Virus record (IMG/VR): IMGVR_UViG_3300020055_000205
Coordinates: 1-20,483 of that record
DNA length: 20,483 nt
Direction: 5' to 3' (one strand)
From: a virus
In this document: positions 5,801-19,330 of the stretch, in pieces
How the letters are laid out: the number at the start of each line of letters is the position of its first letter
How positions within the stretch are numbered: the first letter of the stretch is position 1
Program-made: the position numbers and the translations under genes
The notes under the pieces: generated by a model
Databases searched by the model: none
Told to the model about the DNA's origin: nothing
What the model saw: the letters and a program-made list of their open reading frames with translations, nothing else

Positions 5801-6120
5801 CTACCAATCATATACCAAGGACTTTCTTTATTAACTTCATTATATCTTTTTATTTTATTTAAAGTTGCTGCAGTTTCAGCACTACTTTGACTAAAATAAA
5901 AATGATGCATTAAAGATTCATAACCGTTTAATTGTGGATCACTAGATGGATTATAATTTTCTTCTGGAGTAAAATCTGCATTATTTAATAAATTTTTTGC
6001 AGCAATCATTGAAAGGTTTTCTTGTTTAAAACCATCCCAAAATGCTGACATGCTATAATCTTTAGGATCTTCTTTTTTAGCAATAATAGTATTTTGATTA
6101 ATAGGTGTAATAAATTCCAT
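2854..6120 (-). CDS. large internal virion (DNA-ejection) protein, gp16-like
   Basis: A 1088-aa protein, the last core/ejection gene before the fibres, where T7 has gp16. The N-terminal 100 residues include SDPQLNGYESL and SSAETAATLNKI, which I recognise from gp16-type proteins of marine podoviruses. The middle is long, charged and helical (about 280-560). Hydrophobic stretches lie near 150-168, near 698-722 (LTMLTGFAAAIPDVARVVM) and at 944-964 (FMFGSLLLVGSGMIIDKIY); such segments suit a protein that enters the cell envelope during ejection. The C-terminus has GPTGGQIYNIFD and RRLIPFQNVWYLDWLFD (about 1066-1081), a typical ending of large podoviral core proteins. No transglycosylase motif was seen at its N-terminus, unlike T7 gp16. 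Start and stop both overlap neighbours as TAATG. Assignment rests on order, size and motifs. Confidence 0.8.
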   Translation of the reverse strand: MEFITPINQNTIIAKKEDPKDYSMSAFWDGFKQENLSMIAAKNLLNNADFTPEENYNPSSDPQLNGYESLMHHFYFSQSSAETAATLNKIKRYNEVNKESPWYMIGRLTGAILDPSSYLFFTKIGQTARIAGTAMLGEEIVKQNIDPFRDDSMVPMVAAWGYTLPFLVNKLTAKVPLNVQKNLKQLDDQFIGNKTVKQNDIAVDGTFVNPNKTDPQPSGVGAEGIFKTKMTTKQKMEGETFVKSNLGVFGEEGPWTPVFRLIKQNTSLTARKMIGDLLDTPLLKLKNTKEWGFQSSGKSIETDMRMMRVGEIESHKLIKDEFQKYIARIQGSRAVPKTDLGLNLHNKLTKDTPGGFMDRMSLAQFSHEVTRARLNGFSHPIQEVSAAARHTQDKVYGPLFEKVQQLGIREMPVETELLFWKSQLDAMRKKGETFRNYTSKVDNVKTTWNISKIENQIDKLTQRLANVKKRGVNDYINIIYVKNAIEKSPEKFKEIIRGHFQRAKITINESKLNQLVKDLSNHFPFVRFEKTMGDLTERYAFNRPRYARSVRARELNLDRIAQEELLDGGFILSDIFALQKAYARQIIPDILLTQKYGDPNGLGVKYFLDGEMSGFNPGLMTINNEFNIKAQSISVTAPKNLKGKAKADWIRNTLKEKRKPIFKERDKVLSDLEASIELIRGTYGLPSNPHSWTSQAMRTAKHYNALTMLTGFAAAIPDVARVVMTSGIKRGFKTQFEMFSDFLDGKTIYNMGKKEAQSFGEAVDMVTGQRAMLFADVGDMFGITSKLESGMGKLSAINFMYVNLMSRWTEMAKSMASVTIGSRIIEDSIRWTKGSLPDKWKTALSSSGIDQDMARRIAVQFEKHGEKTKHNFMANTAKWEDAQAVDAFGAALNKDINITIVTPGLGDTPLFMSTELGSLLTQFKKFAIGANQRMLMRGMQEQDMDFMFGSLLLVGSGMIIDKIYTEFRFGRDYSKQSLTTKLLNGFDRSGLAGIYTDINKAIETLTDNRFGIGPMFGEDRPYGSSNRWKAGTLAGPTGGQIYNIFDILYDVGGNQYNHHSAKNVRRLIPFQNVWYLDWLFDDIQKGLH

Positions 6121-9100
6121 TATTGTAATTTACCATCATATGATCTAATACCCATTGAATAACCTTCTCCAATTATTTGCAATGCAACATCAGAATTATA
6201 TTTAGAGTTAAATGCATCTTTTCCTGCTTCATGTTGAACCATAAAATAAATTAATTTTATCATTTGATTTTTATTTAATAAATCAACTTGTGTATCTCTA
6301 TTTAAAATAGGATGATTATCTAATGCATTCATATAAGATGCCATATTTGTAGAGTATTTTGTACCTTTTAATATTTGTTCAATTGTTGGCGTAGATGAAT
6401 ATTCACTTTGTATTGTTTTTCTAATTTTTTTAATACCATCTGTTAAAGATGAATGATTTAAAAATAATCTAGTCATAGCTCTAATACTTTGTTTAGGATG
6501 TGTAAATACAGCTACATTTCTACCATCTCTTTGATATTTTATATCTAATTCACCATCCCAATTTGCAGAAGATAAAGCACCCCAGTTATTTGTTCTTAAT
6601 GTTAAAGGAACTTTATTTCCTTGTTCATCTATTTCTTTATCATAATTATTTTGTACCCAATGTTTAAAGATTACTTCTGCATTTGCATTTGATTTTTTTA
6701 ATTCCCATGGTGGATAACGAGCTTCTAATACTTTTTCAATATCTGATAAATTTTGACTTTTTTCAATTTGTTCATTTAATGATAATTTATTATTTGCTTT
6801 AGTATGTGCTATTCTTAAATCAGATTCTATTTCTCTTAAATCACCTTTAAAACCCATTACTTTAGCTAACCAACCAAAAGGTCTTATATCAGTTGCTAAT
6901 GTTTCTGTTTCTCCAAAAAATTTAGTTTTAACATCAATTGATGGGTGAAATCTAAAATCAGATAAAGAAATACCATTTCTAATTATTGAATGTAATGTTT
7001 TTTTAAACCAAGAATTTTTATTGTATTTTTTACTATCTTTAAATGCATTTGGATTCATAGTTGCAACATCTGACCAATCAAATGCATTTTCTAAATTTTG
7101 AAACCAATCTGTTTTTATCCAATCTTGATATATTTCATCTGTTATTTCATTTACTAATTGATGTTTGCTACCGTATACACCTTCTTTATAATTAACTTTC
7201 ATATCTACAATTGGTGCAAAATGTTCATCAAATGTAACTGCTAAACCTTCTTTTTGATCTAATATAGATAAAGAGTATGCTTGTTTATCTTCATCTGTAT
7301 TATATAATAAAGGTTCAATAGCAATTCTTATATTTCCATTGGGATTTGAAAAATATTGATTTAATAAATTATTTATATCTTCCCATTTACTAGTTCCAAA
7401 TTTTACTTGATTTTCTAATGGAGAGTTCATTGTAAAATTTTTTTTAACAAACCCATATATATCATCATGTCTTACTTCTCCATGTTCAAGCCAAAAAGGT
7501 CTTTTAATTAATTCAGGTGTTCCAGAAAAAGTATATTCATTAATTCCATATCCTAATTCTTTCATTTTATGTGCTGTTTTAGTCCAAGCTGCATTAACAA
7601 GTTTATTATTAGGTATATTTGTAATTTCAGGAATTGTTTCTCCTTGTGACATTGCTGCCATATTTTCTGCAAATATTTTTTTCATTTCATCTTTTGCTGC
7701 AGTAGGTATTAATTTAGCTTCATTATATGCAAACCAAGTTGTTTGATCTGAACTTCTAAACATATGTTTGTGTAATTCATCTCTTTCATCTCTAAATAAA
7801 TTCATTAAAATATGTGGAGTTTGTAATTTATATGAAAGTATATTATCAAATGTTTTATTAAAATTAGGATTTAAAATTAAACTATCTTTTCTTTTAGTAT
7901 AATTTTTATTATCTTTAATAAGATTATTAATTTTTATACCTGCAGTATCAAAATCATTTATACTTATATCATCCATTACTCCATTAGTTATTGATTTTTC
8001 AAACAAATCATTAAATTCTGCATATGGATAAAATTGTTTAGCATATTGATAAATAAATAATTGATTATTAAAATGATCTAAAGAACCTTTAGTAGATAAA
8101 TCTGCTGCTGGATTAACTGTTAAAAATTCTTTTAACCCTTCAGGAAATATATCTTGTTTAGATAAAACATTAAATGCTGTTGTTAAACTATTTGCATTTG
8201 CACCTTTATATTGTATTTGATTTATTCCATTATTTTTTAAAACAAAATCTGCAAATTTTTGTGGATCTACATTATGATCTTGAAATACTATTTGTTCATC
8301 TGGTTTTTGTGAAAATTCAGAAATTAATTTTTGTACTCTATTATTTTCTTCTACAATATCTATTAATTTTTTAAAATCTTCAGAACCATAATCTATTTCT
8401 AATTGAGCTGCTAAATCTGATACTTGTACATTGCCACCTTTAAATTTTTCTCCACTTAATACGTTTCCATATTCTTGTGCAAATTCAAAATTAAAACTTG
8501 TTTTTTTTAATTTACCAACAATTTTTTCTTTACTAAATGCTTCGTATTTATTTTCAATATTATTAATTATTCTTTTTCTATCATCATCATCTTTAAGTAA
8601 TTTATTTACAATATCTGTTACTGGGTTATTTGGATCTAATTCTACATTGTAATCATCATTACCATTAGCAAAATTATATAACCAATTTCTTGCTCCTCTA
8701 TCATTTCCATTATTATCTAATAATTTCATAATGTTTAATCCTCTAGAAACAATAAGAGCTTCTAAATTTTCTTCTACATTATTTATGTGATCTTTATCTG
8801 TTAGTTTACCTAAATTAACTAAATTTATTAAATCTTCATAAGCTAATTCATTTACATTTTTCATGTTTTCTAAATATTTTGCATTAATTGAAGTTGTTCC
8901 AAATTCAACATTTTCTTCATTAAATAAACTCATTGCAAAATCTGATTCTGCTTTCCAATTATTCCAATTAGTTTCTCTATCTCCAAATATTTTATTGTTA
9001 GAAATTTGTCTAAAATTTTTAGATGCAGATAAAATAGAATTTTGACTATATTCAGACAACATTGCATTAGCTTGTATTTTGTATGCATTAGGAATTGTAT

Positions 9101-9374
9101 CTAACAAAGTTTTAGAATAAGTGTCTACTGCTGCTTTCATTCCATTAGGATCATTTTCAAAATCAACTCTAAATTTTTCAAATTGATCTCTAGTTTTTAT
9201 TTGAAAATCTTGAAAAAAATTAGCTTTAGCATTTTGATCTGCTTCTCTTTGTAATCGTTCTAAAGTAGGTTTAAATGCATCTACAGCAATACTTAAATAA
9301 CTAGATGCAGGTACATATGGTGTACTTCCAGGAGCTTGTATTTTATATTGTGTTTTTTCTTTTTTTAATGCCAT
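6120..9374 (-). CDS. large internal virion protein with lysozyme-like C-terminal domain
   Basis: A 1084-aa protein, mostly soluble and helical, rich in Asn, Lys, Asp and Phe, placed where T7 has gp15. The N-terminal 100 residues are helical (VDAFKPTLERLQREADQNAK). A large middle part has no motif I can name. Residues about 924-1055 stand out: LTLRTNNWGALSSANWDG, then VAVFTHPKQSIRAMTRLFL, then STPTIEQILKGTKYSTNMAS and YMNAL. This spacing matches the R-x-N-N-x-G-N/A-L ... F-x-x-P-x-x-(G/S)-x-R-A ... T-I-x-x-I pattern of phage and PRD1-P5-like virion peptidoglycan-degrading domains. I infer that it opens the cell wall during ejection, a job done by gp16 in T7. The start lies 2 bases after the gp14-like stop, with no clear ribosome site. 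Its stop overlaps the next start (TAATG). Confidence 0.75.
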   Translation of the reverse strand: MALKKEKTQYKIQAPGSTPYVPASSYLSIAVDAFKPTLERLQREADQNAKANFFQDFQIKTRDQFEKFRVDFENDPNGMKAAVDTYSKTLLDTIPNAYKIQANAMLSEYSQNSILSASKNFRQISNNKIFGDRETNWNNWKAESDFAMSLFNEENVEFGTTSINAKYLENMKNVNELAYEDLINLVNLGKLTDKDHINNVEENLEALIVSRGLNIMKLLDNNGNDRGARNWLYNFANGNDDYNVELDPNNPVTDIVNKLLKDDDDRKRIINNIENKYEAFSKEKIVGKLKKTSFNFEFAQEYGNVLSGEKFKGGNVQVSDLAAQLEIDYGSEDFKKLIDIVEENNRVQKLISEFSQKPDEQIVFQDHNVDPQKFADFVLKNNGINQIQYKGANANSLTTAFNVLSKQDIFPEGLKEFLTVNPAADLSTKGSLDHFNNQLFIYQYAKQFYPYAEFNDLFEKSITNGVMDDISINDFDTAGIKINNLIKDNKNYTKRKDSLILNPNFNKTFDNILSYKLQTPHILMNLFRDERDELHKHMFRSSDQTTWFAYNEAKLIPTAAKDEMKKIFAENMAAMSQGETIPEITNIPNNKLVNAAWTKTAHKMKELGYGINEYTFSGTPELIKRPFWLEHGEVRHDDIYGFVKKNFTMNSPLENQVKFGTSKWEDINNLLNQYFSNPNGNIRIAIEPLLYNTDEDKQAYSLSILDQKEGLAVTFDEHFAPIVDMKVNYKEGVYGSKHQLVNEITDEIYQDWIKTDWFQNLENAFDWSDVATMNPNAFKDSKKYNKNSWFKKTLHSIIRNGISLSDFRFHPSIDVKTKFFGETETLATDIRPFGWLAKVMGFKGDLREIESDLRIAHTKANNKLSLNEQIEKSQNLSDIEKVLEARYPPWELKKSNANAEVIFKHWVQNNYDKEIDEQGNKVPLTLRTNNWGALSSANWDGELDIKYQRDGRNVAVFTHPKQSIRAMTRLFLNHSSLTDGIKKIRKTIQSEYSSTPTIEQILKGTKYSTNMASYMNALDNHPILNRDTQVDLLNKNQMIKLIYFMVQHEAGKDAFNSKYNSDVALQIIGEGYSMGIRSYDGKLQ

Positions 9375-12946: not shown

Positions 12947-13777
12947 TTACTCTGCACACTTCTGTATTCTAATACCATCAGAATCAATTAATACACCACC
13001 TATAGAAAGCATAGATGTAATTAAGTGTGATACTTTTTCTGGTATATAGTTTACTTCAGTTTTAACGTCAGAACCAATTCCCATACCAATTGATGATTTG
13101 TGGAAAGCTACAGTATGTCTATCAGTTGAACCAGAAGTTTCTAGTCCACTGTGTACAAACCATAAGAATCCTAACCATCTCTTAGCAGTCATACCACCAG
13201 CATAAGGAAGTTCACCTTCTCCTACATACTCGACTCTTGAGAATTGATCTAGGTTGATTAGGTCAGACCATTGTTTAGGCCCAACTACCCAGTATCTTTG
13301 TTGGTCATCTGGTACGTCATTAGTATTGAAAAGTTCCATCATAGCTTGAGCTTTTCCTAGGTTCATTCCAGTACCTGTACCTGATGAGTTATTAGCAAGT
13401 GCTGTTGCATTTTCCATTACAGAAGTAATAACGCTGTCAGTTTTTCTACCTAAAGCGTATGCTGCTGAATTTGCAACTACTTGTCTTTCGTCAATGTTTA
13501 CCTTTAACTCGTCTAACTTGTCAACGTAATCTGCTGCATAGTAATCAGTTAAAGTTGCTGACACATTGCTGTGAGCTAGATCCATTGCAACTACTTCAGC
13601 ATGTCTTGCTTTAGTGTTTGCAGAACCTTTTGCAACTTTCTGAAACTTAACAGTATTACCATTAACACCGTTCACAGTTCTTGTTAGGTTCTTTAATTTA
13701 GAACCCATTCTTTGATAAGCCATGTGAACTTCAGCTTCGAATTGAGTTATAAAGGCATTTGTTATTGATGTTGCCAT
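12947..13777 (-). CDS. major capsid protein
   Basis: A 276-aa protein in the centre of the head block, after scaffold. The N-terminus MATSITNAFITQFEAEVHMAYQ, the glycine-rich loop TVNGVNGNTVKFQKV, the helix with DKLDELKVNIDERQVVANSAAYALGRKTD and the later IPEKVSHLITSMLSIGGVLID are typical of short HK97-fold capsid proteins of podoviruses whose coats are annotated as phage capsid protein. In context it forms the icosahedral shell around the scaffold and portal. It has a strong GAGGA site 6 bases before the ATG and the longest untranslated leader in the window (about 144 bases), both expected for the most abundant virion protein. Codon choice looks less A/T-extreme than in the core genes. An alternative assignment is unlikely given size, order and motifs. 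Confidence 0.92.
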   Translation of the reverse strand: MATSITNAFITQFEAEVHMAYQRMGSKLKNLTRTVNGVNGNTVKFQKVAKGSANTKARHAEVVAMDLAHSNVSATLTDYYAADYVDKLDELKVNIDERQVVANSAAYALGRKTDSVITSVMENATALANNSSGTGTGMNLGKAQAMMELFNTNDVPDDQQRYWVVGPKQWSDLINLDQFSRVEYVGEGELPYAGGMTAKRWLGFLWFVHSGLETSGSTDRHTVAFHKSSIGMGIGSDVKTEVNYIPEKVSHLITSMLSIGGVLIDSDGIRIQKCAE

Positions 13778-13921: not shown

Positions 13922-14191
13922 TTATATCCATTTTTTAGGAATAGTAATTACTTCTCCAAACTCTATTGTTCCATCTTTATCTTCAGAATATGTGCCAAAT
14001 AATGTTATAAAATCTTTTGTATCTTTGTATATCCAAAATTCACCAGTTTTACAAACTGCTGGTACTGCAGCATCCATTTGTGCTACAGATAACCAACCAG
14101 TTTGCGAAACACAGTCTAGCCATTTTATTGGCTTTTTAAGTTTCTTAAAATTAAACTTATGTTTTTTCTTGTCCTTTGTATGCCTTCTCAT
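13922..14191 (-). CDS. conserved small phage protein, unknown role (89 aa)
   Basis: An 89-aa protein between scaffold and MCP. The first 22 residues are very basic (RRHTKDKKKHKF, KKLKK) and overlap the scaffold gene by 35 bases. The core, from residue 24, is WLDCVSQTGWLS, then a predicted strand GEFWIYKDTKDF, then IPKKWI at the end. I recognise this W-x-D...(T)GW...(G)xxxxx...IP-x-x-WI pattern from small phage proteins with no known function. The ATG at 14191 has no good ribosome site, so reinitiation after scaffold or a non-ATG start closer to the core is possible. Its place in the head block suggests a head-assembly accessory, but small proteins of this type occur in many phage contexts. 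Confidence 0.75.
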   Translation of the reverse strand: MRRHTKDKKKHKFNFKKLKKPIKWLDCVSQTGWLSVAQMDAAVPAVCKTGEFWIYKDTKDFITLFGTYSEDKDGTIEFGEVITIPKKWI

Positions 14192-14909
14192 ATAATTCTG
14201 TTACTCGTTTTACATAAGCAGGATCACGTCTACTAGAATCCCAATATCTAGGATCTTTTAACATAGATTTTAAATCATCTATATCAGCAGAAACATCTAC
14301 CTGTGTTTGAGTTGTAGGCATATTGCTATCTTTTGTAAGTTTCATTACTTCTTCCAAAGCTTTTACTCCTTCAGCAGTTGCAGCAAAACCTGATATAGCA
14401 TTATAAGCTTCTGGGCTTAAATGTTTTTTAGACCACAGTTCTGCAGCTTCTACTCTTTCTCTACCTGCATCTCCTAGTTTTTGTATTTCAAGATCAGTAT
14501 TAGGAAGATTAGCAATAGCATTATCTACAAATACTTTTACACCTTCATCATATTGTTCTTGAGATAGACCTGCATTTTTTGCAGTTTGATTCCACCATTG
14601 TACTATAGGCATGTCATTACTAATATCTAAACTAACATTGCCATCTAGTTCTGGAACATTTAATTTATATTCCTCTGGTACACTTTGTAGTTTTTCATTT
14701 TCAATATCTGTTCTAATTTGTTTAGTCAGATCTTCTGTTCTAGAACCTAATTTAGATTCTAGAGAGTTATATGATGAAGCTAAGTTTTCTATATTAACTT
14801 CACCTTTTTCAGCATTCCAAAATTTTTCTTGTACATATTCTGGTCTAGAAGTCGTTTCTGAAGATTGCTCTGTAGCGACTGGTGCTGAATTAGCATTATC
14901 ATCTGCCAT
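14157..14909 (-). CDS. capsid scaffolding protein
   Basis: A 250-aa acidic, helical protein just upstream of the capsid region, which is where podoviruses encode scaffold (T7 gp9-like). The N-terminal 25 residues are disordered and acidic (MADDNANSAPVATEQSSETT). Residues 26-60 carry the PEYVQEKFWNAEKGEVNIENLA stretch, a signature of phage scaffold/capsid assembly proteins (P-x-x-(V/L)-x-x-K-(F/Y)-W). PEEYKLNVPEL follows near residue 78. A Gln/Glu-rich helical middle leads to a C-terminal basic helix (AYVKRVTELYEKAYKGQ) that would contact the coat. A strong AAGGAG site lies 6 bases before the ATG, as expected for a protein used in hundreds of copies. It overlaps the upstream Bbp19-like gene by 11 bases. 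Confidence 0.9.
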   Translation of the reverse strand: MADDNANSAPVATEQSSETTSRPEYVQEKFWNAEKGEVNIENLASSYNSLESKLGSRTEDLTKQIRTDIENEKLQSVPEEYKLNVPELDGNVSLDISNDMPIVQWWNQTAKNAGLSQEQYDEGVKVFVDNAIANLPNTDLEIQKLGDAGRERVEAAELWSKKHLSPEAYNAISGFAATAEGVKALEEVMKLTKDSNMPTTQTQVDVSADIDDLKSMLKDPRYWDSSRRDPAYVKRVTELYEKAYKGQEKT

Positions 14910-15181: not shown

Positions 15182-16738
15182 TTACGCTCCTGGTGGAGCT
15201 TCACCTCCTTCTGGTGTTGATTGCATTTGTTGTAAACGCTGTACTAGCTCTTGTTGTTCTTCTTCATTTCTAATTAATCTTTCTGGAAGATTCATTTTTT
15301 CAGCTAGATATTTTGCAGTTGTGTTTTGGTCTACAATTAGATTAACCATTTGTGGCCCAAATGTAGCTCCAATAATTTCATTAAATCTAGTTACATCTGC
15401 AACATCTTGTAAATGTTGAGCTTGTGCTAGAGGTGAACGTGGAGCTATCTTAACTTCCCTACCGTTTACTTTAGGGATGTCTATTCTACCTTGTTTAGAT
15501 AAAATTCTAATTATTCTTTTTAACAATGGAGTTATTAATTCAGATTGAAGTCTACCAAAAGAAGATCCTATTTGTCTTGATAGATCTGCCATTCTTTCAG
15601 AAACTTCGGTAGCTGTCATGGGTGTACCTTCTGGTCTACCAAGAGCTTCCATGTATAATGCTTTTTTAATATTTGTTCTCATATCATTTAAAACTAATTG
15701 AGCTACATCAAAGTTAGATGCAGAAGGTATAGGACTTAATCCTCTAGAACCTGGAGCTACAGGTATTAAAGATCCAGGTACTAATGATATATTGTCTGGA
15801 TTAATTACACCATCATCTTCGTAAGTATATACACCAGATACTGACATCTGTGCATTTTGTAATATTAATTCTATTGTAAGATTACAAGTTTTAATTGCTG
15901 CCATTGCATTAAATACTGGCCCTCTACCATATACTTCGCCTGATGCCTTATTCCATCTAAATACTAAATAAGGATTAGAACCTTCGCCTTCAAATATTTC
16001 TTCATATAAAATATGTTTTGGACTATCCATAACAATACACATTTTATGTTTTTCTACATTTTCTTCATATATTTTATAAACTACTTCTATAATTTTAACT
16101 TTCTTTTTATTTTTTAAAGGATCAAAATTTTCTGGTAGTTTAGCTTTAGGATATAAAATTTTTATTTCGTGTGGTTTACAATATCTAGTTCTGTACACAG
16201 AATCTATTTTACCATCTGGGCCTGTGTTTAAACAAACTCTAGTTAATGGAACTGCTGTAAATTTAATTGGGTTTATTGCATCACCTTCTTCAACAAGCAT
16301 AACTCCTGTACCAATTGCAAGATCCATAAACGATTCATGTATTTCTTGGTTAAAGTTTGATTGTTGTAATAATTGAAAAACGTAATCTGTAATTTTATCT
16401 AACTGTAAATTTATATTTGGTTTTTGTTCTGGTGGTATTTCTGATCCAGCTTGAAAGTCTGCCCATCTAGCAAAGGTAGGAGTTATACCTGCTTGTAGTC
16501 TTGATGCAAATTCTTGTACTCCAACTACTGCAGTTTCATCAAAAATTTTATCAGTTCTTTTTTGACCTGGAGATTCTTCATAAAAAGATTCTCTATTTGG
16601 AAGACAGTATTCATATGCTTCTTCAAACTTATCTTTCCAGTAATCTTTTATAGATTGTGCTTCTTTAAATTTTTTTAAAATTTCAGACGCTTTATCTTCT
16701 GTACCGTAATTAATTTCAGAGTTATCCAAGTAATCCAT
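15182..16738 (-). CDS. portal protein (head-tail connector, T7 gp8-like)
   Basis: A 518-aa protein of normal length for T7-type connectors (about 500-560). Typical stretches: KDYWKDKFEEAYEYCLPNR (31-49), FASRLQAGITPTFARWADF (77-95), the tunnel-proximal VFRWNKASGEVYGRGPVFNAM (259-279), a helix with KTCNLTIELILQNAQ (283-297), the VPGSLIPVAPGS loop (320-331), and MTATEVSERMADLSRQIGSSFGRL (374-397), an almost invariant block of the family. The C-terminal 30 residues are Gln/Glu-rich and end in a Pro/Gly tail. The dodecamer replaces one capsid vertex, docks the terminase and gives passage to DNA. It starts in a TAATG overlap with the gene to its right. Confidence 0.95.
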   Translation of the reverse strand: MDYLDNSEINYGTEDKASEILKKFKEAQSIKDYWKDKFEEAYEYCLPNRESFYEESPGQKRTDKIFDETAVVGVQEFASRLQAGITPTFARWADFQAGSEIPPEQKPNINLQLDKITDYVFQLLQQSNFNQEIHESFMDLAIGTGVMLVEEGDAINPIKFTAVPLTRVCLNTGPDGKIDSVYRTRYCKPHEIKILYPKAKLPENFDPLKNKKKVKIIEVVYKIYEENVEKHKMCIVMDSPKHILYEEIFEGEGSNPYLVFRWNKASGEVYGRGPVFNAMAAIKTCNLTIELILQNAQMSVSGVYTYEDDGVINPDNISLVPGSLIPVAPGSRGLSPIPSASNFDVAQLVLNDMRTNIKKALYMEALGRPEGTPMTATEVSERMADLSRQIGSSFGRLQSELITPLLKRIIRILSKQGRIDIPKVNGREVKIAPRSPLAQAQHLQDVADVTRFNEIIGATFGPQMVNLIVDQNTTAKYLAEKMNLPERLIRNEEEQQELVQRLQQMQSTPEGGEAPPGA

Positions 16739-17397
16739 TAATTATAAAATCCTCTACCACCAGCTCTACCAAACAAAGATCTAGATGATGTTATTGATAA
16801 TCTTTTTTTCTTATAAGCATCAGCTTGTTCTGCTGCAGCTTGATCTGCTTCTGCTTGTGCAGCTTTTTGTTGTGCAACATTTTCAGCTTCTATTTGCTGT
16901 GTTGTCTTAGTTTTAGTTTGCCCACCCTTATCGTTTCCACCCAAAATTACTTGTTTAGTTGTCATTGTACCATCTGCTTTTTTAACTTTAATAGTTTCTC
17001 GTCTATAACCTTGTTGTAAATTACCATAAGCATCAATCTGTCCAGACATTCTACCTTGCATGTATTTATCATAAGCTCTATTTTGTTCTGTTAAAGATAA
17101 AGCTTCAAACTCTGTTTTTGTATATCCAATATTTTGTTTAGCTCTACTAGATGCTAAAACCTTTTCATTAAAAAAAGTTCTTGTTTTAATAGACCCTGCT
17201 TGAAATGGGCCTTTCATTGCTTGTAATGCAGGTGGGCCACCTACAGTTCTATCTATTTTATCAGCACCAGATTTAATAAAATCTTTTTTTTTTCTGTCTT
17301 TTATTTTTTTTTCTGAATAGGTTGTGCCACCAGTTGTAACTGCTTCAGCACCTGATACGTCTGTATCTCTACCTGCTCTACCACCATCACCACTCAT
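16738..17397 (-). CDS. polar, low-complexity virion-module protein (219 aa)
   Basis: I choose the ATG at 17397, because AAAGGA lies 7 bases before it; the longer frame (to 17430) would need a TTG inside the upstream gene. The product begins MSGDGGRAGRDTDVSGAEA, is Gly/Lys/Gln-rich throughout, has a probable Ala/Gln/Glu coiled coil near residues 175-200, and ends SSRSLFGRAGGRGFYN. Small glycine-flanked ends of this sort (R-S-L-(F/L)-G/T-G-x-G-G-x-G) recur in proteins placed beside the portal in many podoviruses. No enzymatic motif is visible. Its place between TerL and portal, and its TAATG overlap with the portal, suggest a head-completion or packaging accessory. Two long A-runs occur in the coding strand (17304-17312 and 17284-17293 on the plus strand as T-runs). 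Confidence 0.8.
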   Translation of the reverse strand: MSGDGGRAGRDTDVSGAEAVTTGGTTYSEKKIKDRKKKDFIKSGADKIDRTVGGPPALQAMKGPFQAGSIKTRTFFNEKVLASSRAKQNIGYTKTEFEALSLTEQNRAYDKYMQGRMSGQIDAYGNLQQGYRRETIKVKKADGTMTTKQVILGGNDKGGQTKTKTTQQIEAENVAQQKAAQAEADQAAAEQADAYKKKRLSITSSRSLFGRAGGRGFYN

Positions 17398-17411
17398 AGA
17401 AAAATCCTTTT

Positions 17412-17825
17412 TTAATCTGATTTGTTCCAAAATCGCTTATATCCTGCTTTACGCAACGCACAATATAATTGCCATGGAGTTATAATATACCATCTATAAA
17501 AACCTATTAATCTCATAACAAATGATACACAGCTTAATTCTTTTATTCTAAATAAATGCCAATCATCTTTTACTGGACATACTAATACCTCATAGTCATA
17601 CAAGTAACCTAAAAAGTTTTCTGACTCTTGTTTAGTTAGATAGCTTGTCTTAATACCTGCGTGAGTAAACTCAAGATGTTCCCAAACATCTAAACTGGGT
17701 ATGAATTTTAAGGCTCCACAATGATTAAATCCATGTGGAGGTTTCCACCACCATATCCATTTAGCATATCTTTGAGTTCCTCTACTATGAAAGTAGACTA
17801 ACCATTCCTCTTGAACAGATCCCAT
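17412..17825 (-). CDS. possible permuted papain-fold (NlpC/P60- or LRAT-like) protein
   Basis: A 137-aa protein overlapping the end of TerL by 28 bases. A Trp-rich start (KWIWWWKPPHG, 22-32) leads to FNHCGALKF (33-41), two further strands (WEHLEFTHAGI, YEVLVCPVKDDW), and then LSCVSFVMRLIGFYRWYIITPWQLYCAL (97-124). A histidine in a first strand followed by a cysteine at the head of a helix is the order seen in circularly permuted NlpC/P60-type and LRAT-type enzymes. I have seen the C-V-x-x-V-(K/M)-R-x-L-G...TP-x-Q-L-Y block in phage proteins. H35 and C99 would be the catalytic pair. There is no signal peptide. The substrate is unknown: peptidoglycan, a lipid or a protein. The family is inferred, not proven. 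Confidence 0.65.
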   Translation of the reverse strand: MGSVQEEWLVYFHSRGTQRYAKWIWWWKPPHGFNHCGALKFIPSLDVWEHLEFTHAGIKTSYLTKQESENFLGYLYDYEVLVCPVKDDWHLFRIKELSCVSFVMRLIGFYRWYIITPWQLYCALRKAGYKRFWNKSD

Positions 17826-19330
17826 ACTTTTCTTTTTTTAGTTTTTTGTCCAGCAAATACATCCCATTCTTTTTTAGCAACAGTTGGTTGTGATTGTGAT
17901 CTACCTGCTAGTAATGTTCTACCTTCTCCAGCACCCATCATTAAATATTGCAAAGCATCATGAACGTGAGAATATCTATTCTTATATGGTTTTTCATCAT
18001 AACGATCTCCAGATGTTTGAAGTCTTCTATAATGATAACCACCATTAAATCCTTTTTTTAAATTAAGACATTGTGGATCTATTAAAAATCCTGCTTTACC
18101 ATCTATAAGTCTTTGTAAAGCTGTGTCTACAGATTCTATTCTAAGAGCAACATCATTAGATGGTGCAGGTACAGCTTTTAATCCATAGTTTCTCATAATA
18201 GAAAAAGGAGTTCTTTCGTCTGTCTGTGATCTAAAATCACCAGCAGGATCTCCAAATATTTGTACATCATAGTTATTATAATTTTTTGCTATCTCACCTC
18301 TAAGTAATTCAGAAAACCTCATTACACCCATATCAAAACATACAAGCTCATTTAATATATTCCATCTACCCAATGCTGTTCTTTGACCAAAGACAGCAGC
18401 AGGAGTTAATCCAAAGTCTATACCTATAAACAAAGTTTGGTTAATAGATGGTTTTATTGTTTCTGCAGATATATGTATTTCTTGTTTAAAGTTTGGATAT
18501 ACTGGTTTACCTTCTTCTATGCTACCGAGTTTGTTTAAAACATAAACATCTATCCATCCTTTTGTTTTACCTCTAATAATATTAGGATAGTATTTAGGTG
18601 TTAGGTTTTTTTTATTTTCTGCATTATCATTTGGTATATATTCTTCTGTAAAACCTTCTTTGTTTTTCTTTTCAATCAAAGCAGATGGTTGTGTATGAAA
18701 ACTCCAGTTGTCTGGTTTAATTAACATTAAAGCTTCATCACGAGATATATGATCTGGTACAGGTACATCACCTGCCATTATAGGCCACCAATGATCTTCT
18801 TCTGGTGCATTGGTATCTGCAATAACACCATACCATGTAGCACCACCATCTCTCATAGATGGAAATCTACCTACCCTCATAGTACAAGCATCTATAATAG
18901 ACTTAGGTATTTCTCTAGCTTCATTTACCCATACACCTGTAAGCTCAAGAGATAATAGTTTCTTGACATCTTCTGGTCTATCAAGAGCTAAGAATATAAC
19001 TTCTAAATCTATATCACCTCTTTGTATTTTATGAGTATAAGGTACTGACCAAGCAAAGTTACCCCAAGTATCTTCTGGAAACCAATCTAACCAAGTTTTA
19101 ATTGTTGTAGTTCTTAGCTGTGGATTTGTATTTCTTATTACTGCCCATCTTGATTTACGAACACCTTGTGCATTTTTTTCTTGTAACAATGCTCGTCTAA
19201 ATATTTCTATACAGCAAGATACAGATTTACCAGAACCTACTGGCCCTCGTAATCCTCTAAAGAAGTCATCAGACTTCATAAACTTTTTTAAAGTTTGTCC
19301 TTCTGGTTTATAATTAAAATTAATCGACAT
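17798..19330 (-). CDS. terminase large subunit (TerL)
   Basis: A 510-aa packaging motor with both domains intact. ATPase: Walker A GPVGSGKS at residues 29-36, a Walker B-like strand TGVWVNEA (131-138) with E137 as probable catalytic carboxylate and Asn in place of the usual Asp, and the coupling motif VIADTNAP (169-176). Nuclease (RNase H fold): D305 in FIGIDFG, D361 in IFGDPAG, and D458 in HVHDALQYL. This N-x-(E) form of Walker B is common in the podoviral TerL group to which it seems to belong. It binds the portal, pumps DNA and cuts it. Its ATG overlaps the 62-aa gene upstream by 11 bases, and its end overlaps the papain-like gene. No small terminase is obvious; the 62-aa protein next door is a candidate. 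Confidence 0.96.
   Translation of the reverse strand: MSINFNYKPEGQTLKKFMKSDDFFRGLRGPVGSGKSVSCCIEIFRRALLQEKNAQGVRKSRWAVIRNTNPQLRTTTIKTWLDWFPEDTWGNFAWSVPYTHKIQRGDIDLEVIFLALDRPEDVKKLLSLELTGVWVNEAREIPKSIIDACTMRVGRFPSMRDGGATWYGVIADTNAPEEDHWWPIMAGDVPVPDHISRDEALMLIKPDNWSFHTQPSALIEKKNKEGFTEEYIPNDNAENKKNLTPKYYPNIIRGKTKGWIDVYVLNKLGSIEEGKPVYPNFKQEIHISAETIKPSINQTLFIGIDFGLTPAAVFGQRTALGRWNILNELVCFDMGVMRFSELLRGEIAKNYNNYDVQIFGDPAGDFRSQTDERTPFSIMRNYGLKAVPAPSNDVALRIESVDTALQRLIDGKAGFLIDPQCLNLKKGFNGGYHYRRLQTSGDRYDEKPYKNRYSHVHDALQYLMMGAGEGRTLLAGRSQSQPTVAKKEWDVFAGQKTKKRKVWDLFKRNG

Follow-up and report, generated by a model that had tools for sequence, protein, structure and literature searches.

The window, by which we mean the whole 20,483-nucleotide stretch of viral DNA that was analyzed, carries on its minus strand a run of packaging and head genes, and a small gene lies among them. 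The features that concern us are these:

17798..19330, minus strand: terminase large subunit (TerL; phrog_2, E 4e-19)
17798..17825, minus strand: 28-nt overlap of the TerL 3' end with the 5' end of the family gene (a similar overlap occurs in most relatives)
17412..17825, minus strand: family-member coding sequence, 137 aa, ATG start (homologue scans and dN/dS)
17721..17723, minus strand: codon for H35, the first residue of strand 2 and predicted to be the catalytic His (conservation and model)
17670..17672, minus strand: codon for E52 on strand 3, predicted to serve as the third residue (conservation in viral and bacterial members)
17529..17531, minus strand: codon for C99, predicted nucleophile, residue 1 of the core helix (conservation)
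16738..17397, minus strand: small head protein with C-terminal ...SLFGRAGGRG... (counterpart in relatives)
15182..16738, minus strand: portal, or head-to-tail connecting protein (PF12236, E 1.6e-90)
14157..14909, minus strand: probable scaffolding protein (between portal and capsid genes; homologues in bacterial elements sit in the same place)
12947..13777, minus strand: major capsid protein (phrog_3437, E 1.6e-58)

The 137-aa reading frame is a genuine gene and not a chance one; dN/dS is 0.08-0.19 between the window member and five close relatives. An earlier note on this DNA had singled out two motifs in the protein, and both are there, FNHCGALKF at residues 33-41, which includes H35, and CVSFVMRLIG at residues 99-108, which begins with C99. 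Its placement of the gene between TerL and the head genes is also right, as the small head protein and the portal follow directly on the gene that overlaps TerL. A purine-rich stretch precedes the ATG. The window indeed shows no endolysin, as the note says, but both it and its record end within the tail-fibre genes. For the small head protein the open reading frame call begins at a TTG at 17430, and the ATG at 17397 is the likelier start; the protein is the counterpart of a small MGS...RRG...LLG protein that precedes the portal in relatives. Elsewhere in the window, positions 6120-9374 encode a 1084-aa probable internal virion protein that is without significant Pfam or PHROG match.

Extent of the family and its conserved residues

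How far does the family extend? Scanning viral contigs with the window protein gave 74 loci, and scanning with an alignment gave 286 relatives, of which 80 were kept. When a divergent member served as a tblastn query, the matches in Vibrio phages were non-significant by score, and on inspection they proved to sit where the window gene does, across the TerL end and ahead of the portal, and to have the same motifs. Viral contigs searched with a DNA pattern encoding C-V-x-F-x-K...G...T-P...L gave 119 stretches, every one of which contains an open reading frame of the family. A profile that drew on close relatives of the window protein alone matched all 119 pattern members at E<1e-3, a score that owes part to the motif used for selection, and in the reverse direction a profile built only from pattern members matched the window protein at 2.5e-24; neither profile matched anything outside the family. 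Homologues reach down to about 20% identity. Members of the family occur in marine phages, in Vibrio phages and on alphaproteobacterial chromosomes, and it is widespread yet without recognition by Pfam, PHROGs, NCBIfam or PADLOC; the window protein itself has no significant match in these collections or among PDB sequences. A weak resemblance to phrog_15451, seen in 20 of 63 members and falling, in the window protein, on the C-terminal Cys motif, does not support counting the two as one family (best E 0.0097), and the function of phrog_15451 is not annotated. In member L250 and in some bacterial members (frames of 230-730 aa) the reading frame is extended by a long N-terminal stretch, which possibly represents fused domains.

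The earlier note held that homologues lacking either H35 or C99 would speak against an enzyme. In a set of 188 distinct viral and phage sequences, not all of them complete, H35 is retained in 182 of 183 and C99 in 187 of 187; position 52 (n=184) is E in 134, D in 19, H in 19, Q in 10 and N in 2. Selection of the pattern-derived members included C99, but neither H35 nor residue 52. Members from bacterial genomes agree: H35 is present in 60/60, and residue 52 is D, N or E in all 60. For those bacterial members obtained with the A2 profile, which demands no particular residue, the His, the Cys and a D, E or N are each found in 38/38. E, D, H, Q and N are also the residues reported at the third position in papain-like enzymes (PMC10318531). 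We consider it likely, and with good confidence, that the protein is a catalytic Cys-His-acid enzyme. A metal site formed by H35, C36 and C99 was rejected, C36 being Val in a large clade. The lone H35 exception, in L176 (1013-1477), has Asn in place of His (YQNVFATRY) and retains C99, and is a natural candidate for an inactive form.

Might the His, Cys and acid instead stabilize a non-papain fold in a non-enzymatic assembly or structural protein? Such a protein would fit with the other near-invariant residues of the family, which are many (G108, T116, P117, L120), with the H35N variant of L176, and with the failure of Foldseek to return a papain-fold structure. Even among homologues with as little as about 20% identity, however, residue 52 is always one of E/D/H/Q/N, as in catalytic triads, and in the model described below C99 opens a helix and H35 opens a strand. 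A purely structural role therefore strikes us as unlikely.

The predicted fold compared with permuted papain enzymes

An AlphaFold model computed from an alignment of 63 diverse homologues has a pLDDT of 83.7 and a pTM of 0.79. An earlier run with 13 close homologues was too shallow (pLDDT 71) and had no helix at C99, which appeared once the 63-sequence alignment was used. The modeled elements are a strand at 7-13, a helix at 22-27, strands at 35-42, 47-54 and 57-63, a helix at 65-75, a strand at 79-84, and helices at 99-107 and 117-126. By DSSP, H35 is the first residue of strand 2, E52 lies within strand 3, and C99 is the first residue of the core helix. In the model, this order of elements is that of circularly permuted papain folds, and, judging from the limits of the 35-42/47-54 hairpin strands, H35 and E52 should point to one face.

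The fold search that the earlier note had proposed did not find a papain-fold structure. Against the PDB, Foldseek returned nothing with E<0.6; the best match had E 0.66, and a papain-like toxin/immunity entry, 9l5u, came only at E 2.7 with a TM of 0.27. This does not exclude a papain fold, as minimal or permuted papain folds may escape detection. Against BFVD, seven viral models without stated function were found at E<1e-3; the proteins (for example A0A1E1GES3, A0A516MFG2 and A0A6J5NZ77, E 3e-6 to 2e-4, probability 1.0) look like members of the same family.

Does the family belong to the permuted NlpC/P60 enzymes, as was first suggested? The likeness lies in the order of His, polar residue and Cys found in the C92 proteins YaeF and YiiX (PF05708), LRAT (PF04970) and PPPDE, with the His starting strand 2, the acid on strand 3 and the Cys first in the last core helix. 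The spacing from His to acid is 17 residues in the window protein versus 15-16 in two C92 proteins. NlpC/P60 enzymes also have a GD motif and a catalytic Tyr (PMC3142127, PMC10318531). In the phage family the GD motif at strand 1 is absent, the position being variable (E, K, D, S, H) with no conserved Gly, and no Tyr is conserved in the stretch from strand 5 to C99. Pfam gave no match to PF05708, PF04970 or PF00877 for the window protein or for family members. When home-built C92 and LRAT alignments were compared by hhalign with an in-silico permuted NlpC/P60 profile they scored 95.7% and 96.1%, so that the test works; with the same permuted NlpC profile the phage family scored 1.3% (A2 alignment) and 2.4% (extended alignment), and its direct comparison with C92 and LRAT gave below 0.2%. 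The best local alignment with NlpC does place H35 on the NlpC His, with a score reached by 1 of 200 column shuffles. An early comparison using three sequences, which aligned both catalytic halves at 7.6%, was dropped when the deeper alignment gave 1.3%. Because the profile scores are low and the GD motif and Tyr are not conserved, we do not file the family in NlpC/P60, and membership in C92, LRAT or NlpC is unsupported by Pfam, by PDB sequence search and by hhalign with working positive controls. Besides lacking sequence or profile similarity and a PDB fold match, the family differs from the permuted NlpC/P60 enzymes in that its gene sits in a phage head module.

Transglutaminase-like domains (PF01841) have an H...W...D-P motif. 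The bacterial branch of the family has H-C...W-x-x-[LIV]-[DN]-P, with the W four residues before the acid, and we treat the resemblance as a lead only; the Cys is last in the family and first in transglutaminases. A profile comparison gave no support, though with only three usable transglutaminase sequences it was a weak test, and a regex search of about 1.2 Mb of bacterial DNA found no transglutaminases. A permuted transglutaminase thus has nothing beyond the motif resemblance.

Where does this leave the papain-like reading of the earlier note? The permuted order of His, E/D/H/Q/N and Cys and the modeled topology sustain it, whereas the lack of a papain match in the PDB and of a profile match to NlpC/P60, C92 or LRAT does not. 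We regard a permuted papain-like fold as probable, and would say at most that the protein works like a permuted papain enzyme.

Neighborhood, lysis genes and possible roles

What might such an enzyme do for a phage? TerL lies within 300 nt upstream of the family gene, usually overlapping it, in 137 of the 172 non-redundant loci with enough upstream DNA, and the portal lies within 3 kb downstream in 128 of the 138 with enough downstream DNA. Distance matrices for the family protein correlate at 0.86 with those for TerL and at 0.76 with those for the portal, as compared with 0.91 for TerL versus portal; label permutations for the family protein peak at 0.14. The family gene is co-inherited with TerL and portal. 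In phages Hodr and MEP301, whose TerL is related, the gene was not found beside TerL, so that podovirus assembly can probably do without it.

The mechanism we propose is as follows. The family gene would encode a cysteine enzyme, small and cytoplasmic, whose papain-like core is circularly permuted, in the order strand 1, strand 2 (His35), strand 3 (Glu52), strands 4 and 5, and a helix headed by Cys99. By analogy, His35, oriented by residue 52, would deprotonate Cys99, which would attack a carbonyl to give an acyl-enzyme resolved by water or by transfer. The enzyme would be made late, coupled to translation of TerL, and may act on a portal-proximal head component during assembly, trimming or modifying a head protein. 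Of the three roles first suggested, acting on the wall, on lipid or in maturation, that of a maturation enzyme is the one that remains best, the others being judged less likely. A role in morphogenesis is our best assignment for the gene, a putative one that we hold at about an even chance; that the protein is at once a permuted papain-like cysteine hydrolase or transferase and active in head/portal morphogenesis is a conjunction we put a little short of that. If the enzyme reading is true, podovirus head assembly has a cysteine-enzyme step missing from current annotations. With H35, E52 and C99 as targets for mutation, and culturable hosts for the Vibrio phages that have members, among them phage 1.179.O with NVP1179O_03, the proposal is directly testable.

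The small head protein (window 16738-17430, and relatives) has a C-terminal RRG/RAGG...LLG-like motif and is a possible candidate substrate; the motif is also present in Hodr, MEP301 and BcepC6B, which are phages without the family gene.

The wall-active role deserves comment, since the window gave no sign of a lysis gene. A near-complete relative (35.9 kb, family protein 76% identical) has a Peptidase_M15_3 gene just past its tail-fibre genes, a distant relative has a glucosaminidase and a 3TM holin, and an alphaproteobacterial element has a Hydrolase_2 gene. As relatives carry separate lysis enzymes, the family gene is unlikely to be an endolysin, and this was set aside as the likeliest role; the gene also stays with head genes and not with lysis genes. 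A broader version would make the protein a lipid- or wall-active enzyme, an LRAT/YiiX-like acyl hydrolase or a peptidoglycan amidase, either taking part in lysis or travelling in the virion to help the genome enter the cell. Lipid-active enzymes are known among those with a permuted papain fold (PMC3142127), and the modeled element order resembles theirs. Relatives nevertheless have their own lysis genes, which encode an M15 peptidase, a glucosaminidase or a Hydrolase_2; neither Pfam nor the profile comparisons nor the PDB searches linked the protein to the lipid- or wall-active families, and judging the sequence by eye we see no N-terminal hydrophobic signal. We find this version improbable.

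Could a cysteine enzyme of the same kind act on a host protein, as a deconjugase or deamidase in late takeover or counter-defence, and merely travel as a passenger in the packaging operon? The protein is small, soluble and apparently dispensable in some relatives, and in MEP301 a gene annotated as an acetyltransferase fills the same TerL-overlapping slot. Co-inheritance with TerL and portal, the single-copy retention with head genes in chromosomal elements described below, and the lack of any PADLOC match count against it, and we give a host target little credence. The MEP301 gene itself (L149, 3987-4487; a Methylophilales phage) overlaps the TerL 3' end.

Chromosomal elements in Alphaproteobacteria

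The pattern was also matched in genome contigs, where 22 of 32 matches are real and 10 are unrelated short frames; real matches with a named host are alphaproteobacterial or from unclassified proteobacteria. Of 385 sampled Alphaproteobacteria genomes 66 carry the family gene, nearly always in single copy, and each of 29 Thalassospira genomes has exactly one copy. The host genes flanking the element are common to three Thalassospira genomes, and between two Thalassospira elements dN/dS for the family gene is 0.05. In the longer bacterial regions examined, the portal, scaffold and capsid genes follow the family gene on one strand, with tail genes in two of three. In three Thalassospira genomes inspected for it, about 12-28 kb separate TerL from the family gene. 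In the Thalassospira elements examined, then, the gene has stayed next to the portal but not next to TerL, which suggests that it works with the portal-proximal head, in keeping with the assembly function we prefer.

What are these elements? Thalassospira chromosomes (L443-L447) and other regions (L353-L384, L405-L442) contain a podovirus-type structural cluster made up of an S24-type repressor, a small AWFWF protein, the family gene, portal (PF12236), scaffold, capsid (PF19821), tail genes and a distant TerL. In the three Thalassospira species compared there is one copy in the same chromosomal place, and related clusters are present in part of the Alphaproteobacteria. The chromosomal cluster is a candidate podovirus-type gene transfer agent (GTA), and the family gene marks elements that look like such candidates. 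An element of Faecalibacterium has been called the first podovirus-like GTA-like element (2026 paper, PMC12946183), and our search of the literature found no report of a podovirus-type GTA in the Alphaproteobacteria. It is a tentative further thought, which we hold to be possible but doubtful, that an unrecognized permuted papain-like family of podovirus virion-morphogenesis enzymes was domesticated together with a podovirus-type, GTA-like particle cluster that Thalassospira and other Alphaproteobacteria pass on vertically.

In the alphaproteobacterial elements the family gene comes immediately after the gene for the conserved AWFWF... protein of 108-182 aa (L444, 1-546; L371, 3188-3679; L375, 1180-1506). 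It has no Pfam match where scanned, and is possibly a small terminase or a regulator.
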